DNA from: Planctomycetales bacterium
Lineage (GTDB): Bacteria; 4484-113
Direction of reading: 5' to 3'
Assembly: GCA_030606285.1 (NCBI GenBank)
Contig: JAUWGS010000020.1
Span: 1-32,857 of the forward strand
DNA: 32,857 nucleotides
Shown in pieces: positions 797-32,044 of this stretch; the first letter of the stretch is position 1, and each line of letters begins with the position of its first letter. The notes beneath the pieces were generated by a model. The model ran no database searches. It saw only the letters and a list, made by a program, of their open reading frames with translations, and had not been told where the DNA came from. The translations under genes and the position numbers were made by a program.

Positions 797-2263
797 ATGG
801 ATATCGAACTAAAACACATCGCAAAACGCAGCGAGAACCTGTCGGACTGGTATACCGACGTGATTCTCAAAGGCGAGCTTGCGGATTACGCGCCCGTGCG
901 CGGGTGCATGGTCTACCGCGAGTACGGCTACGCTATCTGGGAACGCGTGAAGAAGCTGCTGGGCCAGCGGATCATAGACGCCGGTCATCAGGACGTCTAC
1001 TACCCGCTGCTCATTCCGCGCAGCCTGCTGATGAAGGAGGCGGAGCACATCGAGGGCTTCTCCCCGGAGGTCGCCTGGGTGACCATCGGCGGCGGCGAGA
1101 AGCTGGCGGAGCCGCTCGCGATACGGCCCACATCCGAGGTTATCATCGGCACGATGTGGGCGAAATGGATCGGCTCGTACCGTGATCTGCCGATCCTGCA
1201 GAACCAGTGGGCCAACGTGGTTCGGTGGGAGAAGGCTACACGTCCGTTCCTGCGCACGCTGGAGTTTCTGTGGCAGGAAGGGCACACCGCCCATCGCACG
1301 GAGAACGAAGCGCGCGAGGAGACAAGGTTGATACTCGACATCTACCGCGATTTCGCAGTGGATGACCTGTCCATGGCCATGCTGGCCGGCAAAAAGAGCG
1401 ATTCCGAGAAGTTCGCCGGCGCAGTGGAGACCTACGCTATCGAAGGAATGATGCCCGACGGCAAGGCGTTGCAGTGCGGCACGAGCCACTTCCTGGGGCA
1501 GAAATTCGCTAAAGCGTTCGAAATCAAGTTCCTCGACGACGACAATACCGAGAAGCTCGTATGGACGACCAGCTGGGGCGTCTCGCACCGCATAGTGGGC
1601 GGATTGATCATGCAGCACGGCGATGACAACGGCCTTATTCTGCCGCCCAGGGTGGCGCCGGTGCAGGTCGTCATAGTCCCGATTCTCTATGATGAGACGA
1701 AGGCCCAGGTACTGGAAGCCGCGCAGAAGCTGGGCCTGCTCCTGAAGTCGCACTCGGTCTTTGATGAGCCGCTTCGGGTTCACGCGGATCTGGACGAAAC
1801 CACAACGCCGGGCTTCAAATTCAGCAAGTGGGAACTCAAAGGGGTTCCCGTGCGTCTAGAAATAGGGCCGAAAGATCTGGCGAAGTCCCAGGTGATGGCG
1901 GTTACGCGTGACGACCGCGCCAAGCGTACTCTTGCCTTTGACCCGGGAGCCGGCACTTTTGAGCTCGAGGCGTTGACGGGATTGCTGGCGGGTGTCCAGC
2001 AGCGATTGCGCGAGCGCGCGTCGCAGGAGCTTTCGTCCCGCCTGTTCAAGGTGGAGAGCTTTGACGAATTCAAAGAGACCGTTACAGGGAAGGGCTTTGC
2101 CGTAGCGGCCTGGGACGGCACTGATGAGACGGAAGCAGCGGTCAAGGAAGCCACGTCTGCAACCGTTCGCGTGTTGAAAAAAGGGGTTACATCTGGTAAG
2201 GTAGCGTGCATCTATTCTGGCAGGCCCGCCCGGTACATAGCTTATTGGGGTCAATCATACTAG
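797..2263 (+). CDS. proS: Prolyl-tRNA synthetase, short archaeal/eukaryal-like type
   Basis: This cytoplasmic enzyme charges tRNA-Pro with proline. The 488-residue length fits the short ProRS class, which lacks the editing insertion between motifs 2 and 3 found in the long bacterial form. Visible class II signatures are IRPTSE followed by a motif 2 region (RWEKATRPFLRTLEFLWQEG, about residues 142-161) and motif 3 around HGDDNGLILPPRVAP (about 275-289). The C-terminus ends in tyrosine (YWGQSY), as is usual for this class. The start ATG at 797 has only a weak purine stretch upstream. The next gene begins 19 bases downstream of the stop, so the HtrA-like genes could be cotranscribed with it. No disruption is seen. 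Confidence 0.97.
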   Translation: MDIELKHIAKRSENLSDWYTDVILKGELADYAPVRGCMVYREYGYAIWERVKKLLGQRIIDAGHQDVYYPLLIPRSLLMKEAEHIEGFSPEVAWVTIGGGEKLAEPLAIRPTSEVIIGTMWAKWIGSYRDLPILQNQWANVVRWEKATRPFLRTLEFLWQEGHTAHRTENEAREETRLILDIYRDFAVDDLSMAMLAGKKSDSEKFAGAVETYAIEGMMPDGKALQCGTSHFLGQKFAKAFEIKFLDDDNTEKLVWTTSWGVSHRIVGGLIMQHGDDNGLILPPRVAPVQVVIVPILYDETKAQVLEAAQKLGLLLKSHSVFDEPLRVHADLDETTTPGFKFSKWELKGVPVRLEIGPKDLAKSQVMAVTRDDRAKRTLAFDPGAGTFELEALTGLLAGVQQRLRERASQELSSRLFKVESFDEFKETVTGKGFAVAAWDGTDETEAAVKEATSATVRVLKKGVTSGKVACIYSGRPARYIAYWGQSY

Positions 2264-2282: not shown

Positions 2283-3416
2283 ATGTGGCCATACAAAATG
2301 GCGGCGCGGCTCTTCTCGCTCGCGGTCATTACGGCGGTCCTGCTGACTTCAGCCGCCGCGAGCGCACAGAACGGCGGTGTGTCAGGTTGGGAGCTGAACT
2401 ATGCGTCCGACGTCGCGGCGCAGATACTCAAGCCATCTGTGGTTTTCATCGAAACTCGCTTCGATCGCCCGCGTAACGATACCGAGTATGCCATCTGGAG
2501 TTACTTCCGGGGCGCGAGGCCGCTCTACGGCCTTTACGGAAGCGGCTTCATCTACAAGGACCCCAAGTACGTCATCACTACTCCTTTCCTCCTGACGCAC
2601 GCTGAGTACATCCGGGTGATCACAAGCGACGGCAGGGCCTTCCCGGCCGAACTGGTGGACGATGACGACGTATTCAAGACCGCCGTGCTGGAAGTGGACT
2701 GGGGGTATCACTATGAACCCGTCCCGGCGCTTCTTGCCAGCTCGGAGGACTTGAAGCTGGGTGAGCCAATCACGATTCTGGGCTACGATACCGAGGGAGT
2801 GGACTACGTCAGCACGGTTGGGGTCATCTCCGCGATCCGCAAGGAAATGCCCAGCGTGGAAGAGCCCACGGAGCAGTACATCCAGTTCGACGCGGCATAC
2901 GAGCTCCCGATGATGGGCGGCCCGCTTGCGAACATAAGAGGTGAGGTGGTTGGCATTGTCTACGGGACAGTCACCGACTTCTACCAGTCCAACATCAACC
3001 TTGCCGTTCCAATCAATGATCTGGTAAGAGTAGCGGACCGCATCATCTCAGGTGAGGCGAAGCGGCCGTGGTTCGGCGTGGAAACGCTGTGGCTGACCGA
3101 TCAGATCAGGCTCCTTAACAAGGTTCCTGAGCGCGTCGAGAACGGCGTTTTCATCACGTATGTTGAGCCCGGAAGCCCGGCAGATCTCGCCGGCCTTCTG
3201 CCGGGTGACGTTGTCATAGCGATGGAAGGCATCGTGTTTGCGTACTACTTCGACTACAAAGCGTTTATGCGGCGTGTTGACATCGGGCAAGTCGTCAGAG
3301 TCACCTACTGGCGCTACACCTCCGGTGTCACAGAAGCCCCGGGCACGGTTGACCAAGATATCTATGAAACTGTAGTGCAGATACTGGAGTACCCAGAGGA
3401 AGAGGAGGAAGAATAG
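2283..3416 (+). CDS. HtrA-like secreted pseudoprotease with PDZ domain (first of three)
   Basis: The ATG at 2283 follows AGGTGA by about five bases and gives 377 residues; a GTG at 2274 is less likely. A signal peptide ends near AAASA-QNGG. The protein has a trypsin-like fold of the HtrA/DegP type (about residues 50-255) and a PDZ domain (about 260-345, with FITYVEPGSPADLAGLLPGD). Aligned by eye to HtrA, all three catalytic positions are changed: His of TNNHV is Phe102 (ITTPFLL), Asp is Lys132 (VFKTAVL), and Ser of GNSGG is Met211 (PMMGGPL). The surrounding scaffold is well kept, so this looks like a maintained non-catalytic homologue rather than a decaying gene. The tail is rich in glutamate. 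It may bind substrates or regulate the active paralogue downstream; this role is inferred. Confidence 0.9.
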   Translation: MWPYKMAARLFSLAVITAVLLTSAAASAQNGGVSGWELNYASDVAAQILKPSVVFIETRFDRPRNDTEYAIWSYFRGARPLYGLYGSGFIYKDPKYVITTPFLLTHAEYIRVITSDGRAFPAELVDDDDVFKTAVLEVDWGYHYEPVPALLASSEDLKLGEPITILGYDTEGVDYVSTVGVISAIRKEMPSVEEPTEQYIQFDAAYELPMMGGPLANIRGEVVGIVYGTVTDFYQSNINLAVPINDLVRVADRIISGEAKRPWFGVETLWLTDQIRLLNKVPERVENGVFITYVEPGSPADLAGLLPGDVVIAMEGIVFAYYFDYKAFMRRVDIGQVVRVTYWRYTSGVTEAPGTVDQDIYETVVQILEYPEEEEEE

Positions 3417-3469
3417 CCGCATCTCAACGACCAGAGTCTGCGGCTGGCTGAACGTTGGAGGCATATGTA

Positions 3470-4642
3470 ATGAGAAACCTGCTTGCTTTGACAGTGGTGA
3501 TGGGATGCATCTGCCTAGCTGGCGCGGTTGCCGGTGCGCAAGAAGGGATGCTAAGTGATGAGGAAGGGTTGCGCATTTTGCGCGAGACGCCGGTCAATGT
3601 GCCAGAGCTCATCGAGAAGGTAAAGCGCGGCGTGGTGGTTGTGCAGCCTATCCTGGTGGAAGGTATCGCCGCCGCTGAGTTTGGCGGGCTGGGATCAGGC
3701 TTCGTAATCGACAAGCAGGGGCACATCATCACTAACACCCACGTTGCAGGAAAGGCATCAGTCGCTCAGATCATCTTCTGGGACGGCTACTCTGCGAGAG
3801 CTACTCTGGTTGCCGCAGCTCCCCACTACGACATCGCGCTGCTAAAACTGGATAGCCCTGACCCGGATCATCTCTTCCCGGTACCGCTTGGCGATTCCGA
3901 CCGTGTCAAGCCGGGAGACCTGGCTCTGGCAATGGGCGCTCCGGGCTCCATGGAAGGCTTCAATATCGACCGAAGCGACCCGCTGGAGGCTTACGGTCTG
4001 CGCTCGACGGCGACAATGCGTGTGGTCTCCGGACGTTATTCGGACATTGATTTCCAAGTCATTCAGAACTACTACGGCCGCAGGAGCTACGGTCTGGCCT
4101 ATGCGATGTATCTTCCCTACGTTTTCCGAACGCAGGCGCCGATCAATCCGGGCAACTCCGGCGGGCCACTGTTCAACCGTCACGGGGAGGTTATCGGCAT
4201 CAACACCTGGGGCGGTTCCTACATGCTCATGCAGCAGTCCAACTTCTCCGTGCCGATAAACTCCGCTAAGAGCTTCGTGGTGGAGGTGCTGGAGCACAAG
4301 CGCCAGGACATCCCGTGGATCGGGATACACTGCATATTCCCGCCCAACATTACGAACCCGGAAGCCTACATCGAATTCAAGGAGCGGTTTCGCCCGGAAG
4401 GTCTGTGGATTTACTCAGTGGAGCCTGATTCGCCTGCAGAGACGGCGGGCTTGCATGATGGCGATGAAATAGTGACTTTGAATGGAGAGGTACCGCCGAC
4501 ATCTGAAGAACTCAGGCTGGAGGTTCTGCTGGGGGAAATCGGAGTTGAGTATTTCCTCGGCGTCCGACGCGGCCACTACGAGTTCACGGTTCGACTGTTC
4601 ACCGTACCCAAACCCGATTATATAGCGAATTTCTCGGTGTGA
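3470..4642 (+). CDS. HtrA-like serine protease, intact triad, PDZ domain (second of three)
   Basis: The ATG at 3470 is chosen because GGAGG (3457-3461) sits eight bases upstream; an in-frame TTG at 3455 overlaps that ribosome site. The 390-residue product has a signal peptide (AGAVAGA-QEG) and an S1C (HtrA/DegP) protease domain. The triad is complete: His91 (NTHVAGK), Asp121 (YDIALLKL), Ser230 (PGNSGGPLFN). A PDZ domain with VEPDSPAETAGLHDGDEI lies near residues 310-370. Such enzymes degrade or refold misfolded exported proteins. An insertion of roughly 35 residues between the Asp and Ser segments (around DRSDPLEAYGLRSTATMRV) is longer than in typical HtrA. It is flanked by two catalytically dead paralogues, so it is the only candidate protease of the cluster. 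Confidence 0.93.
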   Translation: MRNLLALTVVMGCICLAGAVAGAQEGMLSDEEGLRILRETPVNVPELIEKVKRGVVVVQPILVEGIAAAEFGGLGSGFVIDKQGHIITNTHVAGKASVAQIIFWDGYSARATLVAAAPHYDIALLKLDSPDPDHLFPVPLGDSDRVKPGDLALAMGAPGSMEGFNIDRSDPLEAYGLRSTATMRVVSGRYSDIDFQVIQNYYGRRSYGLAYAMYLPYVFRTQAPINPGNSGGPLFNRHGEVIGINTWGGSYMLMQQSNFSVPINSAKSFVVEVLEHKRQDIPWIGIHCIFPPNITNPEAYIEFKERFRPEGLWIYSVEPDSPAETAGLHDGDEIVTLNGEVPPTSEELRLEVLLGEIGVEYFLGVRRGHYEFTVRLFTVPKPDYIANFSV

Positions 4643-4717
4643 GTTCGGTCTGCCCGGGCGCGACACCGGTTCCAGGGGGTTGTAGCGAGGGCTGGGGTAT
4701 ACATTGAGGAGACAAAT

Positions 4718-5803
4718 ATGAGCGTAAGATGGACCAATGTGGGGATGGCGTTGATTCTCTTCTTCGCTGTGGTCACAACAGCGGCAAGAGCGGACTTCGT
4801 AGCCGTCGAAGTCGCTAAAATGGCAAAGGAGTGCGTTGTCACCATTGAAGCGGTCAGCCTGAGTCTAACGGCCGTCTCGCTGACCTCGCGTCAGCAGCGC
4901 ATCGTGCAGAGCTACGACACCGGCCTTATAGTCACCAAGGATGGCTACATCCTGACCGATGCAGCGTCGCTGGAGGACGTAGAGGTACTGGATGTCACAC
5001 TCGCAGACGGCCGGAAGTTTGGTGCGGAGATTGTGGTGCAGGACGAAGGCTACGGCCTGGGGCTGATTAAGCTCAAGGAACCGCCGGCGGACCTCAAGCC
5101 AGCCAAGTTTGCGCTGGGCAAGCCGGTGCGCCAGGGCGAGTCGGTCGTCGTCGTTGGTACTGCCGGCGGCTACGGCCACACGGTATCCTACGGCATCATC
5201 TCCGCGATCCGCACCGTGCGCCTGGAATCAGGCCAGCTGGTTCCGGATATGATCCAGAGCGATGTCGTTGTCAATACCGGCAACGAGGGCAGCCCGCTGT
5301 TTAATGCGAACGGCGAAATCGTCGGTATTCAGGCCGTGTTCGGCGGCGGAGGCGCACTGGGGATGCAGAATGTAACGTTCTTCATGCCCGCACCGCTCGT
5401 AAAGAAGGTTATCGATCAGCTGATTGAGACTGAAGAGCCCGCGTTCCGGCCCTGGCTGGGCGTCATGCCCTACTCCGGCTCATTCGGGATGTTCGGACTG
5501 CGCGAGCTTTCCGATGACCTGCGGATGTATATGAACCTGCCCGACGAATACTGGGATGTTGGAATGCTCATCTACAATGTCTGGGAGGGCAGTCCGGCTT
5601 ATGAAGCTGGCCTGCGTTACCAGGACTTCGTTGTCAAGATAAACGGCGAACTGCTCAAGTCCATCGGCCAGCTGGAGAAGATCGTCTACGAGTCTGAGAA
5701 GGGCGATATTCTCGTATTCAGCATCATCCGCCGCGACCGTTACCGGGAGATAGAGTGTGAGGTCGGTGACCATCCCGAAGAGATGCTGATGTACTACTTC
5801 TAG
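4718..5803 (+). CDS. HtrA-like secreted pseudoprotease with PDZ domain (third of three)
   Basis: The ATG at 4718 is preceded by GAGGAGA. The 361-residue product has a signal peptide ending TAARA-DF. The HtrA fold spans about residues 35-255 and a PDZ domain about 290-345 (VWEGSPAYEAGLRYQDFVVKI). The catalytic positions are all replaced: His by Ala83 (LTDAASL), Asp by Gly113 (GYGLGLIKL), Ser by Glu190 (NTGNEGSPLF). The replacements differ from those in the first gene, so each copy lost activity independently, while glycines and hydrophobic positions of the fold are retained. TATACA at 4698-4703 could be a local -10 box. The stop is six bases from the stop of the convergent radical SAM gene. 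Confidence 0.9.
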   Translation: MSVRWTNVGMALILFFAVVTTAARADFVAVEVAKMAKECVVTIEAVSLSLTAVSLTSRQQRIVQSYDTGLIVTKDGYILTDAASLEDVEVLDVTLADGRKFGAEIVVQDEGYGLGLIKLKEPPADLKPAKFALGKPVRQGESVVVVGTAGGYGHTVSYGIISAIRTVRLESGQLVPDMIQSDVVVNTGNEGSPLFNANGEIVGIQAVFGGGGALGMQNVTFFMPAPLVKKVIDQLIETEEPAFRPWLGVMPYSGSFGMFGLRELSDDLRMYMNLPDEYWDVGMLIYNVWEGSPAYEAGLRYQDFVVKINGELLKSIGQLEKIVYESEKGDILVFSIIRRDRYREIECEVGDHPEEMLMYYF

Positions 5804-5809
5804 CCGGCC

Positions 5810-6883
5810 TTAGCCTTTACGCTCTGGAAGAACCAGCGAGCGAAGCGCTTTCCCGCAGGCGGGGCAGCGAGCCTCGTTTACCAGTGTGCGTGCGGAATAG
5901 CCTGCGCGCGAAATCAGTGTCTGCCCGCAGTCGGGACAGGTAGTGTCCCCGTCCGCGCCGGGCAGGTTGCCCAGGTACACGAATTTGAATCCGCGCTCGC
6001 GCGCAATGCGCTCCGCGAACCGAAGCGTGGCGACGGGCGTGGCCTCCTCGCGGTACTCGTTGTGCGGGAAGTAGCGCGTGAAGTGCCACGGCGTATCGTG
6101 CGGCACGTTGTCCGCCATCCACTCCACCATCGCACTTAGCTCTTCTTCGCTGTCGTTCCAGTTGGTAACGATGTTGGTGACGACCTCCAGGTGCACGCCG
6201 CTCTTGGCGACACGCGCGATGGTCTCCAGCACTTTCTCCGGGTGGTTGTACAGCGCCATCTGTACCAAATTCTCCGGCTTGATGGTCTTCAGGTCGGCGC
6301 GGTAGGCGTCGGTGACTTCAAGTACGTCTTTGAGCGGTTCGGGATTGATAAACGCGTTCGTCACCAGGCAGGTGTAGTAGTCGGTATGCTCGCGGAAGTA
6401 GCGGAAGGTATCCAGCACATACTCCATCCAGATGGTTGGTTCGTTGTAGGTGAACGACACACCGGTGGCCCCTTGCCGGCGGCAGATCTCAACCAGCGCG
6501 GGGGGCTCAATCGGCTCGCCTTCCAGCAGGCCTAAGCCCGCCGAGTCCGCATCGGCCATGGATATAGTCCAGTTCTGGCAGTGCTTGCAGCGGAAGTTGC
6601 ACCCGATGGTGCCCAGCGAAAGCACCAGCGAGCCGGGATGGAAATGGTAGAGCGGCTTTTTTTCCACCGGGTCAACCGCGATGGAGCTGGGGTGCCCCCA
6701 GATGAAAGTCACGAGCTCGCCGTCGAGCACGCCGCGCACGCCGCAGTAGCCCGTTTCCCCCTCGCGGATGATGCATTCGCGGGGGCAGAGGCCGCACCGG
6801 ATTTTCACGCCGAGCTCGTCCGGCTCAAGTTTTGCGAAGTATTTCGCAGGCTTGGCAGCGGATTTGAGCACTTCGGAAAACAT
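5810..6883 (-). CDS. amrS: Radical SAM enzyme of the AmmeMemoRadiSam family
   Basis: The protein resembles the radical SAM member of the AmmeMemoRadiSam system. Its cluster motif is CNFRCKHC (CxxxCxxC), preceded by a conserved N-terminal cysteine segment (CGLCPREC...GYCGVRG) and followed by a C-terminal zinc-ribbon-like tail (CPDCGQ and CPACGK). The start is uncertain. The frame is open back to 6952, but a -10-like TACAAT at 6905-6900 overlaps an ATG at 6901. ATG 6883 gives a 357-residue product that begins MFSEVLKSAAKPAKYF and is preferred. The Amme and Memo partner domains are not in this window. The exact reaction of the family is not settled, so the function is given only at family level. 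Confidence 0.88.
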   Translation of the reverse strand: MFSEVLKSAAKPAKYFAKLEPDELGVKIRCGLCPRECIIREGETGYCGVRGVLDGELVTFIWGHPSSIAVDPVEKKPLYHFHPGSLVLSLGTIGCNFRCKHCQNWTISMADADSAGLGLLEGEPIEPPALVEICRRQGATGVSFTYNEPTIWMEYVLDTFRYFREHTDYYTCLVTNAFINPEPLKDVLEVTDAYRADLKTIKPENLVQMALYNHPEKVLETIARVAKSGVHLEVVTNIVTNWNDSEEELSAMVEWMADNVPHDTPWHFTRYFPHNEYREEATPVATLRFAERIARERGFKFVYLGNLPGADGDTTCPDCGQTLISRAGYSARTLVNEARCPACGKALRSLVLPERKG

Positions 6884-6925
6884 TGCGCGTCCGGAATCCA
6901 TTGTAGCAGTTGAGCGCCGTTTATC

Positions 6926-6934
6926 TGCTAAACT
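6926..6934 (+). promoter_or_regulatory. Candidate extended -10 of queA (possibly leaderless)
   Basis: TGCTAAACT ends seven bases before the GTG at 6942, which would place the transcription start at or next to the start codon. A minus-strand -10 (TACAAT, 6905-6900) for the divergent radical SAM gene lies 20 bases away. Confidence 0.35.
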
Positions 6935-6941
6935 ACGCGGC

Positions 6942-8072
6942 GTGCCAGGCATTCCCCGGGACTACCCGGTTTCGCTCCTCGACTACGCGCTGCCCGAGGA
7001 GCTTATTGCGCAGCAGCCGCTTGCGGAGCGCGACGCTTCGCGCCTGCTCATGGTGAACCGCGCGGCGAATAGCGTTGCGCACTGCAAGTTCCGTGAGCTT
7101 CCGGAGTTGCTCCCGGCACGCAGTTTCCTGGTGCTAAACGACTCGCGGGTGATGCGCAGCCGCTACTTCTGCACGCGCGCAGGCACCGGCGGGCGGGTGG
7201 AAGTTTTACTCACTCGCGTCCACGACGACGGCACCGCCGAATGCCTGACGGAGGCGCGGGGGCATATCCAGCAGGGCGAGCGGCTGGCGTTTCGCGGCGG
7301 CGTCGAGTTTGAAGTGCTGCGTCCGACGGGGCGTGACGAGCCGGGACGCGTGCGCATTCTATACAATAACGAGACGCCGGACGTACCGCGCCTACGCGAG
7401 ATACTGGAGGCGGGTGCGCTGCCGCTGCCGCCGTATCTCAAAGAAAAGCTTAGCGACGAGGAGCGGTATCAGACGAGTTTTGCTGCCGAGACGGGCTCAT
7501 CCGCTGCGCCGACCGCAGGCCTGCACTTCACGCAGCGCACGTTCGACGAGCTTAAGCGGCGCGGGATTGACCACGCGCGGATCACGCTGCACGTCGGCAC
7601 GGCGACATTCCTACCGATACGCGGAGACGACGCGGCAAAGCATCATCTCGCGCCGGAGCCGTACTTTATCCCTGCGGCGGAGCTGAAGCGCATTCTCGCG
7701 GCGAAGCTTGACGCGCGGCCGGTTGTCGCCGTGGGCACGACGAGCATCCGCGTGCTGGAGCGGGTCTTTGCGGGCTGGCGCGCTGCGTGTGAAGAATTGA
7801 GTGTGAGTTCAGCGGATAAGTTGGAAAGCGTGCCGGATACGGCATTGGCCGAGCGTTTTGCCGCAGCGGGCGATACCGACCTTTACGTGCTGCCCGGATA
7901 CGAGTTTGAGTTTGTGGACGCTCTGCTCACCAACTTCCATTTGCCGCGCACGACGCTTTTAGCGCTTGTTTACGCGTTCGGTGGCCGCGAGCTTGTGCGC
8001 CGGGCCTACGACGAGGCGACTGCCCGCCGCTACCGCTTCTATTCGCTGGGCGACGCTATGCTGGTGGTGTGA
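6942..8072 (+). CDS. queA: S-adenosylmethionine:tRNA ribosyltransferase-isomerase
   Basis: QueA transfers and isomerises the ribose of S-adenosylmethionine onto 7-aminomethyl-7-deazaguanine in tRNA, the penultimate queuosine step. Family signatures are visible: YALPEELIAQQP at the N-terminus, VLNDSRVMRSRY, SSAAPTAGLHFT, HVGTATFLPI, VAVGTTSIRVLE and TNFHLPRTTLL. The frame is open back to 6768, but homology begins at DYPVSLLDYALP, so the GTG at 6942 (376 residues) is the likely start; it has no Shine-Dalgarno sequence. A low-complexity, poorly conserved insert of about 30 residues lies near residues 280-310. No other queuosine gene is in the window. Confidence 0.95.
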   Translation: MPGIPRDYPVSLLDYALPEELIAQQPLAERDASRLLMVNRAANSVAHCKFRELPELLPARSFLVLNDSRVMRSRYFCTRAGTGGRVEVLLTRVHDDGTAECLTEARGHIQQGERLAFRGGVEFEVLRPTGRDEPGRVRILYNNETPDVPRLREILEAGALPLPPYLKEKLSDEERYQTSFAAETGSSAAPTAGLHFTQRTFDELKRRGIDHARITLHVGTATFLPIRGDDAAKHHLAPEPYFIPAAELKRILAAKLDARPVVAVGTTSIRVLERVFAGWRAACEELSVSSADKLESVPDTALAERFAAAGDTDLYVLPGYEFEFVDALLTNFHLPRTTLLALVYAFGGRELVRRAYDEATARRYRFYSLGDAMLVV

Positions 8073-12390: not shown

Positions 12391-15120
12391 TTACGGGACA
12401 ACGATGAGATTGTCGGGGTATGTAACGCCGGAACCAGCGCCTGGATTATACAGAGTTACGTTGTACGTGTCAGGGCTAATCTCCTGCGTGAAACCCGAGA
12501 ACCAGAAATCATCAGCAGAGATATCAAGAGCGAAGTACACCAAGCCTCCCTGGGCCTCAGCGTCAAAAATGTGCGGACGTAGCAGGATGTCGGGAAGCGC
12601 TCCACCACCATCGACTGTCAGGATCAGGTGCGTGCCGCGCTGCGTATTGGGAAGCGTCGGATTGTCGTTGTGGCGCAGCCAGAGATTGTAGAACGTGAAG
12701 ACAACCACGTCATTGTCGCCCTGGTCAGCTATCTTGTCGGAGAAGTCGGGAATTGTTTCAGAACCGTCGGCACCCCACGGGCGCACACCGAAATCGCAGG
12801 TTCCGTCAATGACCACGTCGTTCCGCATAATTGGAATCCCAACTAGCGTGCGCGTCACCCCGCCAAGGTATGTCCCATGCTGAGTGAATAGCCCGAAGGA
12901 GATATCGCCGGTGCCAACCACAACAGCAATAAGACCAGCTAACAGATGCGGTTGACGGTAAGTTATCGGCATCTCACCATCCGCCTCACCTATCGTTCCG
13001 GGGGGTGTAGTGCCCCAGAGATAGTACACCATAGGGCTGTCAGGTATTAGTGGTGGTCCGATAGTACCGTAGACGATCATAAACTCCTCACCGTCTGCCC
13101 GGATTATGTCGTCGAAAGCGACTGTATCATCCGGCTCAAACTGTGGCGGTTCCTCAGCCGTCGGGTGCCCGCACGGATTCCGGCGGATTTTCGGATTCTC
13201 CGGCGCGAAGTATAGGTAAGGCTGACGACTATCGCCAACTGAGAACTCCACCTCAGGCCAGGTTGCCATCTCAACAAGCTCCAACACGGTTAGCATGAAT
13301 TCGAACGTGTCTTCGCCGTAGTCGTTCGTCACCGTGACGGAGGCTGCGTAATTACCTTCAGCGCCGAGCGACACCGTTGGCGACTCCGCAGTGCTGGTGT
13401 TCGGCGTGGCGCCGCCACCGAAGTCCCAAGCGTAGGTGAAGGGCTCACTGCCCGTCACGTTAGCTGTGAACTGCGCTACCGATCCCGGCAGGCCGGATGT
13501 TGGCGATACTGAGGATACTAGCGGTGCTCCAAATATATTCAGCGTAAAGTCATATGTGTCTTCGCTATAGGCGTTCGCGACTGTTAGGCTGGCGAAGTAG
13601 CTGCCGAGACTACCGAGCGTCACAGTCGGCGATTCTTCCGTGCTCGTGTTGGGCGTCGCGCCCCCGCCGAAATCCCAGGCGTAGGTGAATGGCGGCGCCC
13701 CCGAAACCTCGGCGCTGAAGCTGACCTCAGTTCCCGCTAATCCGTCCGTTGGACTGACGGATAGTATGTTGGGTATTTCGCCCCGGACACCGTTGTCGGG
13801 TCCACCCAATGGCCCATCCTTGTCTTCTCCCAGCGCCTGTACCCAGTACCAGCGTACAGCGGCGATGGGGGGCTCAGCATCCAGGTACGACAGCGTTTCC
13901 GCTCCCACTTCGGCAAGAAATTCCGCATCGCCCTCAACGTCGGTCTCGCTGCGATATAGCCTGTATCCCACGGCGCTCTCAACCGTAGTCCATTCAATCT
14001 CGATGTAGTCGAGGATGTCGTCGCTCGCGCTCACGCTGGGGGCTGCAAGCTCACGCGCTGCGTTAACAAGTGTCCTTCCCCCGAAACCCGCATTGTTCCT
14101 TGCCCGGACGGCGTATTGATACTCCTTGCCCGGGATGCCGGTTGCATCCGAGTAAGTCACTTCGGGCGCATTGATCCCGGCGAGAAGCACCGGGGGCTCG
14201 TCATCGTCCAGATCGTCACGGAACACCTGATAGATATACACGTCCGGGTCAAGGTTCGTGTCCCAGGTCAGGTTCACCCCTTCGGTATCAGTTGTCGCTT
14301 CAAGGCCCGTGACAATCGCTGGATCGGTGAGCAGATTCTCCTCCACCCAGGTGCAGATTTCCTCTATCGTCAGGCCGCCGGGGTCGTCGTCCTCATCCGA
14401 TACGGCTCGCACTGATGCCTCAAAGGGGAAGTCCGCAATAAGTCCCTCATCCGGCAGCGCGCTTGCAGCCTTGCTTCCGTTACTTGCCAGCACGCACAGA
14501 TAGAAGTTGTCACCCGGCGACTTGAAGCGGCTCTTGAGTGTCTCGGAGTTCACCGTAATCATCACGTCAACTTCGCCAAAGGGCCCGAACCAGCGCCAGG
14601 AGCCGATGCTGTAATCGGCAATGCCCACATAGTACGAAAGCGGGATGTCGTCGTCCTGCCCACCGCCGAAGGCGCAGGGGTCACAATCAATCAGCGTCTT
14701 CAGTGGCTTGGGGTCCGCGCCTATATCCTGGCCATAGACAGCGTACGCGTATTCGCCCGTTGCGTAAGCCCGCAGCGTCAGCGCTGTACCCTCGGTCTCC
14801 ACGTTCAGCCCCGATGTGCCGTTGGTGCCCGTCTGATCGTTTATGTAAGCATCCAGGCCCTGGCTGGTGACGGTCTCGTCCTCCGACACTCCGCGCGATG
14901 CATCAATACATCCATCAAGCGCCATCACGCCCGGCAGCACTCCGCCGTCCGAAGCATCGCCGGTCTGCTCAGAACGGTCCTGTTCTTGCTGCGCGGCTGG
15001 CGTGAGCGTCAACTGCGCAACCTGCCCGCGTTGCTTTCCACACGCGCCGAGAATCAGCGCGAGTATAACCGTCAGTGCGGTGATGACAGCCCAAACAGCA
15101 AGTATCTTCCCACGAGACAT
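12391..15120 (-). CDS. Large lipoprotein with FN3-like and two PKD domains
   Basis: The ATG at 15120 follows AGGAGAGGGGG and gives 909 residues; the frame is open further upstream but without homology. A lipoprotein signal ends LILGAC (Cys27). The next 270 residues are acidic with no clear domain. Two fibronectin-III-like modules follow at about 270-450 (LTWDTNLDPDVYIYQVFRD and IEWTTVESAVGYRLYRSE). Two near-identical PKD domains lie at about 460-640, each with TYAWDFGGGATPNTST. The C-terminal 270 residues are unassigned and beta-rich. The protein is probably anchored at the cell surface or in the periplasm. Its promoter lies at 15167-15175, back to back with that of the MBL-fold gene. Substrate or partner is unknown. 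Confidence 0.88.
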   Translation of the reverse strand: MSRGKILAVWAVITALTVILALILGACGKQRGQVAQLTLTPAAQQEQDRSEQTGDASDGGVLPGVMALDGCIDASRGVSEDETVTSQGLDAYINDQTGTNGTSGLNVETEGTALTLRAYATGEYAYAVYGQDIGADPKPLKTLIDCDPCAFGGGQDDDIPLSYYVGIADYSIGSWRWFGPFGEVDVMITVNSETLKSRFKSPGDNFYLCVLASNGSKAASALPDEGLIADFPFEASVRAVSDEDDDPGGLTIEEICTWVEENLLTDPAIVTGLEATTDTEGVNLTWDTNLDPDVYIYQVFRDDLDDDEPPVLLAGINAPEVTYSDATGIPGKEYQYAVRARNNAGFGGRTLVNAARELAAPSVSASDDILDYIEIEWTTVESAVGYRLYRSETDVEGDAEFLAEVGAETLSYLDAEPPIAAVRWYWVQALGEDKDGPLGGPDNGVRGEIPNILSVSPTDGLAGTEVSFSAEVSGAPPFTYAWDFGGGATPNTSTEESPTVTLGSLGSYFASLTVANAYSEDTYDFTLNIFGAPLVSSVSPTSGLPGSVAQFTANVTGSEPFTYAWDFGGGATPNTSTAESPTVSLGAEGNYAASVTVTNDYGEDTFEFMLTVLELVEMATWPEVEFSVGDSRQPYLYFAPENPKIRRNPCGHPTAEEPPQFEPDDTVAFDDIIRADGEEFMIVYGTIGPPLIPDSPMVYYLWGTTPPGTIGEADGEMPITYRQPHLLAGLIAVVVGTGDISFGLFTQHGTYLGGVTRTLVGIPIMRNDVVIDGTCDFGVRPWGADGSETIPDFSDKIADQGDNDVVVFTFYNLWLRHNDNPTLPNTQRGTHLILTVDGGGALPDILLRPHIFDAEAQGGLVYFALDISADDFWFSGFTQEISPDTYNVTLYNPGAGSGVTYPDNLIVVP

Positions 15121-15166
15121 GAGTCCCCCTCTCCTTGCGCCCGCATCGAGCGCACAAGCTAATCCG

Positions 15167-15175
15167 ATTATACCA
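15167..15175 (-). promoter_or_regulatory. Extended -10 promoter of the FN3/PKD lipoprotein
   Basis: The minus strand reads TGGTATAAT, 46 bases before the ATG at 15120. No -35 consensus is seen. Confidence 0.55.
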
Positions 15176-15305
15176 TTACTAGGCAGCAGCGTGACCGCGA
15201 TTCGCGCTGTGCGTGCCGGCTCTCCTTCCGCAACTCGGTGAACCAATTCTTGGCGGTTCAGATGACGATTCCGCGCCAAGACTTCCGCTTGCGCCTCTTT
15301 TAAAC

Positions 15306-15311
15306 TACAAT
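15306..15311 (+). promoter_or_regulatory. Probable -10 box of the MBL-fold gene
   Basis: TACAAT lies 17 bases before the ATG at 15329, with a weak TTCCGC 17 bases further upstream (15283-15288). The transcript would have a very short leader containing only the GGAGGT ribosome site. Confidence 0.35.
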
Positions 15312-15328
15312 CAGTGCTGGAGGTAATC

Positions 15329-16195
15329 ATGGTAGAGCTGGGGGGCTTCAAGCTTCATGTGCTTTCAGACGGCGTGTTTCACGTTGATGGAGGCCTGATC
15401 TTCGGAATCGTTCCGCGCGTGCTATGGAGTAAGCGCTTCGAGCCGGACGACCAAAACCGCGTGCCGCTGTATCTGAGGCCGCTTCTGGTGGACACGGGCG
15501 AGCAGCGCGTGCTCATAGATCCGGGCATCGGCGACACGTACGGCGAAAAATTCAGGAAGATTTACAGCATCGAGCGCGAGCAGGGGCAGCTTCTGGAGAG
15601 CCTGGCTAACGCGGGATACGCGCCCGAAGACATAACCGACGTAATCTTCACCCACCTGCATTTCGACCATTGCGGCAGCGCCACGAAGCTCGACGATGAG
15701 GGGGTGCCCCGGCTGGTCTTCCCCAATGCGTACCACTATGCTTCTGTCGAGGAATACGAGCAGGCGCGCAATCCCAATGCCCGGACTCAAGGCTCATACC
15801 GCGCCGACCTCATAGAGCCTATCGCCGCGACCGGGCGCGTGCACCCCATCCGCAAGACGGCGGATAGCATCATTCCCGGCTTCACTGTGCTGCGCACGCC
15901 CGGCCACACGCCGGACCACATCTCCTTTCTGATCCAGAGCCAGGGGCAACACCTGGTGTTCTGGGGCGACCTGATGCCGCTGGTAGCGCACATCAATCCC
16001 GTCTGGTCCGCCGCGCTGGACACGCACCCGATGGACACGATGGAGAGCAAGCTGAAGATGCTCAAGCGCGCGGTCGAGGAAGGCTGGCACTACCACTACT
16101 TCTACCACGAGATGAAGCCGCTGCTCACCGCAGACGAAGTCGCCGAACTCATATCCGTCGAAAAAGAGGCCAAGCCCCCTACCGGCGCGGTTTGA
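15329..16195 (+). CDS. Metallo-beta-lactamase-fold hydrolase
   Basis: The ATG at 15329 has GGAGGT six bases upstream and gives 288 residues. The zinc motif HLHFDH (residues 109-114) is present. Further ligands are expected at TPGHTPDH and FWGDLMP, and a distal His lies in the HYHYFYHE segment. The N-terminus (LHVLSDGVFHVDGG) and the overall layout resemble the MBL subgroup that includes lactonases such as YtnP and related hydrolases. The substrate cannot be read from the sequence. There is no signal peptide, so it is cytoplasmic. It sits alone between two large surface lipoproteins and is divergent from one of them. Confidence 0.9.
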   Translation: MVELGGFKLHVLSDGVFHVDGGLIFGIVPRVLWSKRFEPDDQNRVPLYLRPLLVDTGEQRVLIDPGIGDTYGEKFRKIYSIEREQGQLLESLANAGYAPEDITDVIFTHLHFDHCGSATKLDDEGVPRLVFPNAYHYASVEEYEQARNPNARTQGSYRADLIEPIAATGRVHPIRKTADSIIPGFTVLRTPGHTPDHISFLIQSQGQHLVFWGDLMPLVAHINPVWSAALDTHPMDTMESKLKMLKRAVEEGWHYHYFYHEMKPLLTADEVAELISVEKEAKPPTGAV

Positions 16196-16329: not shown

Positions 16330-19032
16330 ATGGGCATTTATATCAGTCGAGCGCTGAATGCGCGCTCAGTCGCGCTCATGGTGCTAATGATTTTGCTCGT
16401 CGCGCTCGCAGCATGCGGGCGGCGGAGCGTTTTCTCCGGCAGCGTTCAGGTGGCGGAGCCCAAAGCCGCGCCTGCGGTCGCGGCGGAGGAAGTGCAGGAC
16501 AGCCTTCAGGCGTTGCATCCGCCGCAGGGCGTTGACAGCGGGCTTTATGCCATCCTAAAAGGTTTCTTCGAGCAGGAGCTTGAGAGATGCGGCGGCGGTA
16601 AGCTCGCCTCCACGCCGCCTACGGGAGACGAGAACGCAATAGATGACCTTGCTATCGCATCCTCCACCGAGGAGACGATAACGCTTACGTGGTCGTACCG
16701 CAACTGCGGCGACTACGACCAGAGCGGCACGGTCGGCATCCCCGACATCACGCCGATTGCGGTCTATTACGACGTGGATGTGGCACAGGTTCCGGAGGCG
16801 GAGGTAGCCGACGGGAACGGTGACGGTTTCGTGACCGTCTCTGACATAACGCCCGTTGCGATGTACTTCGGAGTGGAGGTTGCGGGATACCGCATAAAGC
16901 AGGCGCTAAGCGAGGAGGGCGAGTACGAGACGGTCGCCGACATTGCGCTGCCTGAGCCGCCGGAGGTCGGGTGCATTACGTTTGAGGAGACGATTGGGCT
17001 GGAGGATAGCCCGTTCTTCCGCGTCGTGCCTGTAGACGGCGAGGGCGCGGAGGGCGCAGCGTCCAACGTGATGTACCACGGAGAGATTGTGGAGCCGCAG
17101 GTGCTGGGTGTGAACCCGCACAGCGGCACTGCTGACCTGGAGGTGACGTTCCGGGCCACGGTCGCAGGCGCGGAGCCGTTTGAGTACGACTGGTGTTTTA
17201 GCGACGGAGCTGTTCCGGGCAGCAGTACCGAAGCCTCGCCTACGGTGCGGATGACGTCAACGGGCGGGCACGCGGCGTCGGTTACGGTGACGAACGTCTA
17301 CGGCAGCGACTATTACGAGTTTACGCTGTGGGTGAATCCGGGAATACCGCCGGAGATACTGGGCGTGGTGCCGCACGCGGTGAAGGTAGGGGCGTCCACA
17401 GTAATTACCGCGATAGTGACGGGCCTGGCGCCGTTTGAGTACTCGTGGCAGCTACCGGGGCTTATTGAAGGCGACACCTCGGAGATGCACTCGCCGGAGG
17501 TATTGGCTACGGAGCCGGGCGATTACAAGTGTAGCGTGACGGTCGCCAATGGCAGTGGTGAAGAAACCTATGACTTCATCCTCAAAGCCGGCATGCCCGC
17601 AGACTTCCCGAAGGTGCTGAGCGTTCGGCCAGATGAGTTCTGGGGAGGAGTCCGTATCCGGCTCTATCCAGAGGTCACTGGTGCGGAGCCTCTCCATTAC
17701 TTCTGGGACTTCAGCGAGGACGCGTGTCCTGCCTACAGTATGAGACCTGTAGTGTCGCTGGGAGATGGGTGTATGGTAACGCTTGTCCTGTCCAATGATT
17801 ACGGCACGCACGTCTTCAAGTTCGAGGCTTCTGTGCTGGCCAGCAGCGAGCAGGACTGGAAGCTTAAGTCCGTTGACGAAATATACGGATCTCATATAAA
17901 GGATATCTCCGCAGCTATGATTGGTGGCCGGATGGGTGTTGCATACTGGATTCAAGGTGCGGACCTTAGCCGGGACATTGTTAAATTCTCGCTGGCAACC
18001 GACGAGCTTTCGTTTTCACATAGCGCCGGTGCAGGCGAGTGGATTGTTGATAGAAACGATGATTGGTCCAGCGCGCCACACGATATTGAGCTATGCGAAG
18101 TCGGCGGGAAGCCGATGATTGCCTACGAGATTGGGCGTCAGGGAGAAGACTCGAAAGTCTTGACGGTTGCGGTCTGTGAGAATCCCGAGGCTGGCTTGTC
18201 GGCTGAGTGGAACTACTACGCGGTTCCAGCGGGAGGGATGATTAAGGACATCGCCGAAGTTCAAGGCAGGCCGGCGCTCCTTTATGGGCGTAGGTCAGGC
18301 GACCCGTTAGTGCGGTATCTGTACTACGCGATCAATACGGAACCTGATGCCAGTGGTGTATGGCAGGAGGTGGAGGTTGCACAGTCCGAGGATTCTATTG
18401 GGATGGCGAGCCTGGGCGTCTTCGGTGGCAAGCCGGCCGTTGTGTACCTCTACCGCGAGGACGGCGCGCGCCGCCTGGGATACGCTTATTCGGAGCAGGA
18501 TGATGGTCTGGGCGCATGGACGCGCAATGACATCGTTGAGTTTCCCTCCTATCCTGACACTTGGGAGCGCTCGCACTCTCTGTGCGAGATCGAGGGACTG
18601 CCTGTAGTTGCGACGGTCTGGGTGGGGAATTATAGCCATGAGCTAAGGCTATACCAGCCCGACGCGCCTGACGGCTCGGGGATATGGAGCCACTGGACCG
18701 TCCTGTTCCAGGACCCCTACGAGGGAAAGGTTAACTTGGAGATGTCTCTGGCGGTGGTCAACGGTTCGCCCGCGATTGCGTGTCAGTCGATGTACTGGCC
18801 AGATCCCTTCTGCGCTGAGCGCTTGTGGTATTACACAACTGACAGTACCGACGGCTTCGGCGATTGGCGCGAAGTCGGCCTGGTAGACCCAATGCGTCCA
18901 AGTGGGAATGATCCGCAGCTCCTTGAGCTCCCCGACGGACGTCCGGCTATCATCCACAATCGGGATGGTCCGGACCATCCTGAGGACTGGGAGAACACTG
19001 ACGAGCTCTCGCTCGCGTACTGGAAGGAGTAG
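16330..19032 (+). CDS. Large lipoprotein with dockerin-like doublet, PKD domains and propeller-like repeats
   Basis: This 900-residue product begins with a lipoprotein signal (LVALAAC, Cys29). After a helical stretch and the linker LASTPPTGD comes a dockerin-like pair of EF-hand loops: DYDQSGTVGIPD with ITPIAVYY, and DGNGDGFVTVSD with ITPVAMYF, at about residues 132-180. Two or three PKD-type Ig-like domains follow at about 255-505 (YDWCFSDGAVPGSSTEASPT, then VTVTNVYG). The last 390 residues carry repeats of the form GxPxxxY (IGGRMGVAYW, VGGKPMIAYE, VQGRPALLYG, FGGKPAVVYL), suggesting a beta-propeller. It is a paralogue of the edge lipoprotein at 1-550. Localisation is likely the outer face of a membrane. 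The ligand is unknown and no cohesin is seen in the window. Confidence 0.9.
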   Translation: MGIYISRALNARSVALMVLMILLVALAACGRRSVFSGSVQVAEPKAAPAVAAEEVQDSLQALHPPQGVDSGLYAILKGFFEQELERCGGGKLASTPPTGDENAIDDLAIASSTEETITLTWSYRNCGDYDQSGTVGIPDITPIAVYYDVDVAQVPEAEVADGNGDGFVTVSDITPVAMYFGVEVAGYRIKQALSEEGEYETVADIALPEPPEVGCITFEETIGLEDSPFFRVVPVDGEGAEGAASNVMYHGEIVEPQVLGVNPHSGTADLEVTFRATVAGAEPFEYDWCFSDGAVPGSSTEASPTVRMTSTGGHAASVTVTNVYGSDYYEFTLWVNPGIPPEILGVVPHAVKVGASTVITAIVTGLAPFEYSWQLPGLIEGDTSEMHSPEVLATEPGDYKCSVTVANGSGEETYDFILKAGMPADFPKVLSVRPDEFWGGVRIRLYPEVTGAEPLHYFWDFSEDACPAYSMRPVVSLGDGCMVTLVLSNDYGTHVFKFEASVLASSEQDWKLKSVDEIYGSHIKDISAAMIGGRMGVAYWIQGADLSRDIVKFSLATDELSFSHSAGAGEWIVDRNDDWSSAPHDIELCEVGGKPMIAYEIGRQGEDSKVLTVAVCENPEAGLSAEWNYYAVPAGGMIKDIAEVQGRPALLYGRRSGDPLVRYLYYAINTEPDASGVWQEVEVAQSEDSIGMASLGVFGGKPAVVYLYREDGARRLGYAYSEQDDGLGAWTRNDIVEFPSYPDTWERSHSLCEIEGLPVVATVWVGNYSHELRLYQPDAPDGSGIWSHWTVLFQDPYEGKVNLEMSLAVVNGSPAIACQSMYWPDPFCAERLWYYTTDSTDGFGDWREVGLVDPMRPSGNDPQLLELPDGRPAIIHNRDGPDHPEDWENTDELSLAYWKE

Positions 19033-28962: not shown

Positions 28963-29520
28963 CTATTCTACCACCACCTCTCGCAGCAGGCGCACCAGCG
29001 CCTCCTCCTCGTAAGCAATGTGCCGGACAATCTCCTGCGCCCGTGGGGAAAGCCGCCTATAGCCCCAGCGAGATCGCCGCTTCGCTTCCTCCCAACCCTC
29101 CCGCCGGTAATAGAGCGGCAAGTTGACATCGAAGTAGGAGATGCCGTCCGCGTCCTTGATCAGGTCAGAGCGGAGATCGCCGCCGACCTCATGAACCTCC
29201 ACCAGGCGGCAAGCCTCGTCCACGATGTGCCGTTCCACGCCACAGGCGGTTAGAATCGGGCGCAGTATTTCCGCCCCGTTGTGGGCGTGGGCGGCCTTGA
29301 AGGCGTCGTAATCGTCGAAGTCTGCACGTTTTACTTTGACCTCATTGATGGCTCGGTCAATGTCGTGGGCCAGCGCCGCCAGTTGCAGGGCATCGTCCGC
29401 ATCCGGTGCCAGGCGCAGCAGCCACTCCAGGGTGTTGTCGGCGTGACGCGAATCCTCCGGCACCCGTGATCCCGAAATGACCAGCCGGATTCTCTGTTTG
29501 GCACGATCGATGCTATCCAT
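28963..29520 (-). CDS. HD-domain phosphohydrolase in the inositol operon
   Basis: The ATG at 29520 lies 8 bases inside the upstream gene's end and has AAGG upstream; it gives 185 residues. HD-superfamily metal residues are visible: His26 ([10 protein letters not shown]), His52-Asp53 ([11 protein letters not shown]), His78/His80 ([12 protein letters not shown]), His110 ([10 protein letters not shown]) and Asp123 ([10 protein letters not shown]). Such enzymes hydrolyse phosphomonoesters or phosphoanhydrides. Because it is the last gene after MIPS and the cytidylyltransferase/transferase fusion, it is a candidate for the phosphatase that finishes di-myo-inositol-phosphate or a related inositol product. 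That role is inferred from position only. The metK promoter lies over its last codons. Confidence 0.85.
28965..28973 (-). promoter_or_regulatory. Extended -10 promoter of metK
   Basis: The minus strand reads TGGTAGAAT, 30 bases before the TTG start at 28934, overlapping the HD gene's stop codon. The displaced metK fragment has a matching TGCTAGAAT at 32654-32662. Confidence 0.5.
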
Positions 29521-30835
29521 CGCGTGCAACCTTGATGCGGCGCAGGACCTCCAGATTCATCGCCACGGCAATTACGACCAGCATCGGCAGTACCAGATTG
29601 GCTGCCGCACCCAGGAAGATGAGAAACACCCTCACATCCCGCCCCATGCGTAATCCGGCCCTGCCCCCGGCATTGATCCGCTCGCGCATCAGGTTGTCGT
29701 ACTTGTCCGCGGTGTAACTCAGCATAAACGAGCCGATTATGGCCATGAAACCGATGAAGATTACTAAGCCGCTCACCTCCGCCGCCAGCAGGTGCCAGGT
29801 CAAACCGAACAGCAGAAAGGCGTCGGCATAGCGGTCCAGCACTGCATCGAACCAGCCGCCGAAGTCGCTGCTTTGGTACTTGAGCCTGGCCACTTCGCCG
29901 TCGCAACCGTCAATGATGGATGCGAACTGTGCCAGAACACCGCCAGCGAGCAGGGCGGGATACCCGCCCAGCGCAAACAGTCCGGCGGCCAGCAGGGAAC
30001 ACAGAAACGAGAATAGAGAAATCTGATTGGGCGTAATGTTGAGTTTCACCAAATGGCGGGAAAACAGCAAGGAGACGGGGCGGTTTAGGTAGCGTGATAC
30101 CGGCCCGTCGTTAGACTTGTCGCGGAGCCGATTCAGCAGAGCCTTCTCCGCCTTTCTGAAGGCTATAGGATCGTCCACATCGATCCAGAAATCGCTTGTA
30201 AGGATCGCCTTGGCACGTCCCTCGTTGGCCAGGACTCGCACAGCCCCGGACAGCGTAGTGTCACCGTCTTTATCTCTGCATTGCTCCAGGGCCCCAAATA
30301 TGGCGGGGGAGCACAGGAAAATACCGGTGTCGAAGCCGTTGAAGTCGGCCAGTCCTTTGCCGATATCGCGGACCTTCCCGTCTTCCACCCTGACGCGGGT
30401 GACATCCTCCAGGTCGACGAGGGGATTGCGGGTGTCGTCGTCAACCCCGAGCGCGATCTCCCCATCATCCAGGGCATAAACTGTCAATGCGCGGGCCAGG
30501 TGCGGATCGAAGAGGTGATCCGCCATGAGCAGCAAAAAGGATTCGTGCAGAACCTCCCGCGCCTTGAGTACCGAAAGACCGTTTCCTTTCTCCCAATCGT
30601 CATTAACAAGTGGAGTGATCCGAATCGCAAGGCGCTCTGCTAGCCGCTTCAGGAAACCGCGTACCCGCTCGCCCTGGTAGCCGGTAACGATATAGAATTC
30701 CTCCGCGCCGGCTTCCATTGCGGTGCGAATGACGCGTTCAAGCAGGGGAACGCCCAGGATGGGGATGAGAGGCTTGCTGTCACCCCTCTGCTGTAGTCGG
30801 CTTCCCTTGCCCGCTGCGAGGATCAGGCACTTCAT
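29513..30835 (-). CDS. Bifunctional CTP:inositol-1-phosphate cytidylyltransferase / CDP-alcohol phosphotransferase
   Basis: The N-terminal half is a nucleotidyltransferase (KCLILAAGKGSRL, SKPLIPILGVPLLERVI) expected to form CDP-inositol. The C-terminal half is a multi-helix CDP-alcohol phosphotransferase with the full motif D-x2-DG-x2-AR-x8-G-x3-D-x3-D (Asp309 to Asp334 from ATG 30835). The same fusion in thermophiles makes di-myo-inositol-phosphate-phosphate from CDP-inositol and inositol-1-phosphate. A lipid acceptor giving inositol lipids is an alternative. ATG 30835 has AAGG eight bases upstream; ATG 30841 is too close to it. The protein has 440 residues and is anchored in the membrane by its second half. 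It overlaps the HD gene and follows MIPS by 10 bases. Confidence 0.92.
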   Translation of the reverse strand: MKCLILAAGKGSRLQQRGDSKPLIPILGVPLLERVIRTAMEAGAEEFYIVTGYQGERVRGFLKRLAERLAIRITPLVNDDWEKGNGLSVLKAREVLHESFLLLMADHLFDPHLARALTVYALDDGEIALGVDDDTRNPLVDLEDVTRVRVEDGKVRDIGKGLADFNGFDTGIFLCSPAIFGALEQCRDKDGDTTLSGAVRVLANEGRAKAILTSDFWIDVDDPIAFRKAEKALLNRLRDKSNDGPVSRYLNRPVSLLFSRHLVKLNITPNQISLFSFLCSLLAAGLFALGGYPALLAGGVLAQFASIIDGCDGEVARLKYQSSDFGGWFDAVLDRYADAFLLFGLTWHLLAAEVSGLVIFIGFMAIIGSFMLSYTADKYDNLMRERINAGGRAGLRMGRDVRVFLIFLGAAANLVLPMLVVIAVAMNLEVLRRIKVARDG

Positions 30836-30845
30836 CGCCATCGCC

Positions 30846-31955: not shown

Positions 31956-32044
31956 TGTTTTCTCCGCGTTCTTTCGATGAATGCGCTCTTCTCGGGAAAA
32001 GCGATTCGTTTCGTTCGTTGCCATTCGGAATAAGGCTGGCAGCT

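Follow-up and report, generated by a model that had tools for sequence, protein, structure and literature searches.

Two catalytically dead HtrA paralogues flank an active one in three bacterial lineages: a candidate hetero-oligomeric protease

Among the closest described counterparts of the locus analysed here is the MamE/MamO pair, in which an active HtrA-type protease and an HtrA pseudoprotease are encoded in one gene island; MamO, with its degenerate catalytic triad, has no active site of its own, yet it is required for MamE-dependent proteolysis (PMC4794232). Bacterial HtrA pseudoproteases already known include, besides MamO, degenerate MamE copies. Plant Deg7 has PDZ domains and two HtrA protease domains, one of them active; the other is degenerate and has been reported to mediate trimerisation (PMC3473262). 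HtrA activation passes between protomers, with loop L3 acting on loop LD of the neighbor, and in engineered mixed trimers of human HTRA1 an inactive protomer restored the activity of an assembly-defective one (PMC11252331). The PDZ domains of the envelope-stress proteases DegS and AlgW bind hydrophobic C-termini (YxF/YYF or WVF), which switches the protease on (PMC8545111). Here we describe three tandem HtrA-fold genes (genes 1, 2 and 3) identified in a Planctomycetales bacterium (GenBank assembly GCA_030606285.1, contig JAUWGS010000020.1, positions 1 to 32,857; the whole stretch of 32,857 nucleotides is hereafter called the window), in which an active protease is encoded between two pseudoproteases.

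The recurrence of the dead-active-dead set in three deeply separated lineages suggests that it is an ancient enzyme of several parts, most of them dead subunits. On balance, with a confidence somewhat above even, we favor the reading that the products of genes 1-3 assemble into a hetero-oligomeric protease of the periplasm, with a single active protomer for which the two pseudoproteases would provide sensing, scaffolding and switching. The features on which the analysis centers are:

797..2263, + strand: proS, archaeal-type (class I) prolyl-tRNA synthetase (NCBIfam TIGR00408, 535 bits, cut-off 437)
2283..3416, + strand: gene 1, putatively secreted pseudoprotease with HtrA fold and PDZ domain, Phe-Lys-Met at the triad positions (Pfam, alignment, AlphaFold2 model, and the ratio of nonsynonymous to synonymous substitution rates, dN/dS)
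3470..4642, + strand: gene 2, putatively secreted HtrA with PDZ domain and intact His91-Asp121-Ser230 (Pfam, invariant triad, dN/dS)
4625..4639, + strand: final five codons of gene 2, ANFSV, a [S/T]-hydrophobic, PDZ-ligand-like end (ortholog comparison)
4718..5803, + strand: gene 3, putatively secreted pseudoprotease with HtrA fold and PDZ domain, Ala-Gly-Glu at the triad positions (Pfam, alignment, AlphaFold2 model, dN/dS)
5792..5800, + strand: final three codons of gene 3, YYF, hydrophobic (sequence; DegS peptide in PMC8545111)

Compared with these systems, the trio differs from MamE/MamO in having two dead partners of separate descent instead of one, in the order dead-active-dead. Genes 1 and 3 resemble MamO in their degenerate triads, whereas MamO carries a TauE transporter domain and a metal-binding site, and no TauE Pfam domain was found in any trio protein. 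MamE has c-type cytochrome motifs, while the gene 2 translation lacks CXXCH and scores 65 bits with the NCBIfam MamE model (cut-off 800). In Deg7, both domains, only one of them dead, reside in one polypeptide, whereas the trio comprises three separate bacterial open reading frames (ORFs) for putatively secreted proteins. The single-PDZ architecture and the YYF end of gene 3 recall DegS and AlgW; however, those proteases are trimers of active subunits triggered by tails of outer-membrane proteins or MucE, whereas in the trio the candidate ligands would lie in the paralogues themselves. The HTRA1 mixed trimers likewise show dead protomers supporting the activity of another protomer within a heterotrimer, but they were assembled from variants of one human protein, not from natural paralogues. 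ClpP/ClpR rings of cyanobacteria and plastids are a natural mix of active and dead paralogous protease subunits, although these ATP-dependent rings belong to an unrelated protease family. The first-pass annotation, made from the sequence alone, knew of no described bacterial system with this layout; this is borne out by the open papers searched, with the qualification that MamO with MamE is a known bacterial pairing of a pseudoprotease with an active protease. A conserved set of two dead HtrAs and one active HtrA was found in no paper of the open-access collection searched, which misses most subscription journals.

All three trio proteins show the architecture of the HtrA/Deg family, with one or more PDZ domains placed after a trypsin-like domain: Trypsin_2 was matched at 60.9, 101 and 77.7 bits by genes 1, 2 and 3, respectively (cut-off 27.6), and PDZ_6/PDZ_2 was matched above cut-off by each. 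TIGR02037, the best of the NCBIfam DegP/DegQ/DegS/HhoA models, gave 135.8, 170.7 and 192.1 bits, below its cut-off of 416.2. N-terminal segments resembling signal peptides and ending in an A-x-A motif were read by eye in the three proteins, which would place them in the periplasm. AlphaFold2 models of genes 1 and 3, built as monomers from 32-row alignments, are confident HtrA folds (mean predicted local distance difference test, 86.0 and 87.9), with DegP (Z 32.6, root-mean-square deviation 3.9 over 299 residues) and Deg1 (Z 30.7, 4.7 over 314 residues) as the respective best Protein Data Bank matches. The tandem arrangement of HtrA-fold and PDZ genes and the retained fold of the outer copies, as first annotated, are thus borne out by ORFs, domain matches and models.

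At the aligned catalytic positions, gene 1 has F/K/M, gene 2 H/D/S and gene 3 A/G/E, as had been read from the window, and only the middle copy has the His-Asp-Ser triad of an active HtrA. The numbering His91/Asp121/Ser230 is correct if gene 2 begins at the ATG at 3470 (an alternative start is TTG at 3455), and the three columns are invariant among gene-2 orthologues. The triad loss exceeds what chance would give, because ordinary HtrAs retain these residues: all six other HtrA-family proteins of the same genome keep His and Ser (two carry Asp to Glu), and every one of the 22 ordinary HtrAs finally compared has the His-Asp-Ser triad. An ordinary tandem HtrA array was ruled out as an explanation, as four unrelated tandem HtrA pairs in other genomes are all His-Asp-Ser. 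Tandem clusters of gene-2 paralogues were also seen, with three members in the same genome (C29:297-301 kb, L011:5092-9159) and two in G001 (L207:3527-6115); Asp is replaced by Glu in two of the three C29 paralogues and in one of those in G001, and all keep the FSV C-terminus.

Across orthologues, the middle copies are His-Asp-Ser in 17/17 proteins, and none of the outer copies that could be scored has His at the His position or Ser at the Ser position (30 and 29, respectively). In the phylum of the window, the triad positions read F-K-M, F-D-T, I-D-T, F-K-Y or D-H-T in gene 1 and A-G-E, T-G-E, R-G-E, N-G-E, D-D-T or Y-D-Q in gene 3. In the second lineage, the alignment at the gene-1 His position is uncertain owing to an insertion, and no His is found there under either alignment. 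Thr at the Ser position in several outer copies, and the swapped Asp and His at the first two positions in two gene-1 orthologues, might suggest that the outer copies are active through an alternative catalytic arrangement; we regard this as very improbable, since the Ser position is variable (M, T, Y, D, Q, E or R) and neither the gene-1 nor the gene-3 proteins share a single invariant His, Ser or Cys over all lineages, so that no alternative catalytic center is visible in either. An alternative intact triad, which the first-pass annotation had named as evidence that would overturn its reading, was therefore looked for and not found conserved.

The distribution of the trio was surveyed in 385 genomes of more than 250 families. 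Complete trios were identified in 14 genomes belonging to three phylum-level lineages (8/10, 4/4 and 2/3 genomes per lineage), with two more cut by contig ends, and the order of transcription is dead-active-dead in all 14, so that synteny in related genomes, proposed as a check by the first annotation, was recovered. In the phylum of the window, sampled by ten genomes of four families, tblastn-based synteny recovered the block proS - gene 1 - gene 2 - gene 3 in the eight genomes with complete trios, proS lying directly upstream in each of them but not in the other two lineages. Of the remaining two genomes, G008 has a gene 1 that runs off a contig end and G002, 77% complete, has no trio. The second lineage is one small phylum in which all four sampled genomes (G254, G118, G381 and G385) possess the trio; in the third, it was found in G090 and G360, and G231 has gene 1 near a contig end. 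The trios outside the window's phylum came to light through gene-3 profile matches and their surroundings, and these full trios overturned an initial restriction to the window's phylum, based on a strict gene-1 search. Gene 1 was confined to the three lineages in the survey: complete-trio matches to its profile have E <= 1e-99, followed by an ordinary His-Asp-Ser HtrA at E 2e-65. Further gene-1 profile matches (G182, G177, G315, G145, G121 and G231 contig C43) were rejected as ordinary His-Asp-Ser proteins, and a second gene-1 survey centered on another lineage returned nearly the same genomes and no added lineage. Viral contigs searched with gene 3 gave one distant HtrA only, and a genome contig search gave one distant Phycisphaerae HtrA. 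In three genomes, two in the window's phylum (G005 and G009) and one in the second lineage (G118), the middle gene is duplicated in place within the trio (L204:2182-4983, L049:4934-7292, L052:5905-8319), the outer genes being single.

Identity of gene-1 orthologues between families of the window's phylum is about 37-46%, and the genes are therefore old. In maximum-likelihood trees, each trio position forms a separate clade in which all three lineages are represented (gene 1, 13 rows, support 98/92; gene 2, 18 rows, 99/97; gene 3, 12 rows, 100/98; ordinary HtrAs, 18 rows, 100/98), and proteins of the newly found complete trios reach about 330-400 bits against the profile of their own position, compared with 44-139 bits with those of the other positions. 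Based on the clades, profile scores and gene order, the trio formed once, the long branches calling for caution; a single origin would cover either transfer between lineages or descent from a common ancestor. Pairwise Nei-Gojobori dN/dS, approximate because several pairs are close to saturation at synonymous sites, was 0.077, 0.083 and 0.064 for genes 1, 2 and 3 between G000 and G001, compared with 0.087 for proS (dN 0.064, dS 0.731); 0.090, 0.096 and 0.072 between G005 and G006; and 0.033, 0.020 and 0.027 between G090 and G360, while the G381/G385 pair was unusable owing to saturated synonymous sites. As judged from these substitution rates, the dead copies are constrained as strongly as the active copy, which indicates purifying selection. 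The catalytic residues of the outer copies do differ from genus to genus, as decaying duplicates or assembly artefacts might, but full-length frames in 14 complete trios of three lineages, the kept fold and dN/dS of 0.06-0.09 in the window's phylum, similar to the active copy and proS, refute random pseudogene decay, and we give this explanation practically no weight. The suggestion in the first-pass annotation that the outer copies were selected as non-catalytic proteins, for which it had proposed dN/dS as one check and decaying relatives as a refutation, is strongly supported by the synteny, clades and substitution rates.

The C-termini of the trio proteins differ by position. A [S/T]-hydrophobic end is present in 17/17 middle proteins vs 0/22 ordinary HtrAs and in eight gene-2 relatives outside the trio; middle-type ends include FSV, LTY, VTY and GTL, with FSL or FSI in some copies outside the trio. 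All 13 complete gene-3 proteins end in a hydrophobic residue, the orthologues in YF, FF, YI, FI, SI, GI or TV and the window protein in YYF, a DegS-activating tripeptide (PMC8545111). Gene 1 ends in an acidic tail (EEEEEE) in the window and in an acidic or polar tail in most orthologues. A second position-specific feature is a residue that we take to map to the aromatic trimer core of HtrAs (presumably DegP Tyr163 / HTRA1 Phe278): it is Pro or Ser in 16/16 gene-1 and Pro, Ser, Thr or Ala in 14/14 gene-3 proteins, compared with a bulky hydrophobic residue in 16/22 ordinary HtrAs, and these changes suggest altered assembly of the dead protomers.

In the proposed mechanism, gene 2 would be the sole supplier of the active site, and genes 1 and 3, with their HtrA fold and PDZ domain, would provide pseudoprotease protomers acting as structural, sensing and regulatory subunits. 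Because the protease domains of HtrAs function as trimers and the locus has three paralogous positions, the simplest form of the putative hetero-oligomer would be a 1:1:1 heterotrimer. Activation between protomers, from L3 to LD, would allow the dead protomers to switch the active one, and the PDZ domains may read substrates or dock the hydrophobic tails of partners (gene 2, [S/T]-hydrophobic; gene 3, YYF-like). The HTRA1, MamO and Deg7 precedents lead us to favor a hetero-oligomeric protease, and the earlier proposal of hetero-oligomers, in which dead copies recruit substrate or hold back the active one, is plausible given such experimental precedent in other HtrAs. More specifically, the three paralogues may each be specialised for one place in an ancient, obligate heterotrimer that contains a single active site and two pseudoprotease protomers, is wired together by the PDZ-ligand tails of its own subunits and has been conserved in at least three phylum-level lineages; we put this version forward tentatively, as a possibility somewhat short of an even chance.

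Several observations weigh against a shared complex. Middle-type copies exist outside the trio without an adjacent pseudoprotease (C29 of the same genome; G003 C49; G004 C40), so the active type can apparently function by itself or within assemblies of another kind. The trimer-core position also varies in ordinary HtrAs, and the sequences compared are not independent. Products of linked genes need not touch. Direct MamE-MamO contact was undetected, and the effect of MamO needed its TauE domain (PMC4794232). The main rival is that the outer copies have independent roles as separate non-catalytic periplasmic proteins, such as chaperones or substrate- or metal-binding proteins, within the gene 2 pathway but outside a common complex, comparable to the metal-binding role of MamO. 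Repurposed HtrA folds with their own functions are documented (PMC4794232), and position-specific motifs (RGARPxYG in gene 1 of the window's phylum; a DDLxMY...W segment in gene 3) fit such roles. We nevertheless consider it unlikely, because the trio always occurs together in a fixed order around the active relative in three lineages, gene-1 or gene-3 types were seen alone only at contig ends while gene-2 types also occur apart, and the lack of a His or Cys invariant across lineages suggests no shared metal site. Dead protomers could also lower the activity of an allosteric trimer, and the DegS-activator-like C-terminus of gene 3 could compete for PDZ sites, so that the outer copies would be inhibitors or decoys restraining gene 2 as poisoned subunits or PDZ-ligand competitors. 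This appears doubtful, and less probable than separate roles, since a dead HTRA1 protomer still able to form trimers did not impair the wild-type protein when mixed with it, and could rescue a mutant (PMC11252331), and two separately conserved dead clades exceed the needs of simple inhibition.

With regard to the surroundings, the closely spaced trio genes begin 10-19 nt 3' of proS (an alternative start of gene 1 is GTG at 2274). No promoter-like site was found on the + strand in the trio region, and promoter- and terminator-like sites are fewer than in shuffled sequence, which makes co-transcription of the trio with proS plausible. On the 3' side, the trio is followed by a radical SAM gene and then queA: the AmmeMemoRadiSam-type gene (5810-6952, - strand) overlaps queA (6768-8072, + strand) as listed, and the true start of QueA is probably further downstream, because its Pfam match begins at residue 69. 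In the second lineage (L203:9204-10818, L205:9629-11352), the trio follows genes for SPOR-domain and hexapeptide-repeat proteins instead of proS, hinting at a role in the cell envelope. Elsewhere in the window, two large proteins with PKD domains (986 and 900 amino acids) are encoded at 12391-15351 (- strand) and 16330-19032 (+ strand), respectively, and a nucleotidyltransferase-CDP-alcohol phosphatidyltransferase fusion lies beside inositol-1-phosphate synthase at 29513-32024 (- strand), a pair that fits, as expected, synthesis of an inositol phosphate solute or inositol lipid.

As models of enzyme allostery, HtrA proteases have been studied mostly as homotrimers, in which the share of a single protomer is hard to separate. 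The trio is a further bacterial example of conserved pseudoprotease subunits, in addition to the magnetosome protein MamO. If the proposed hetero-oligomer is correct, evolution would twice have separated sensing or scaffolding from catalysis by assigning them to different genes, a division that has remained stable, and the roles of individual protomers would become directly testable.

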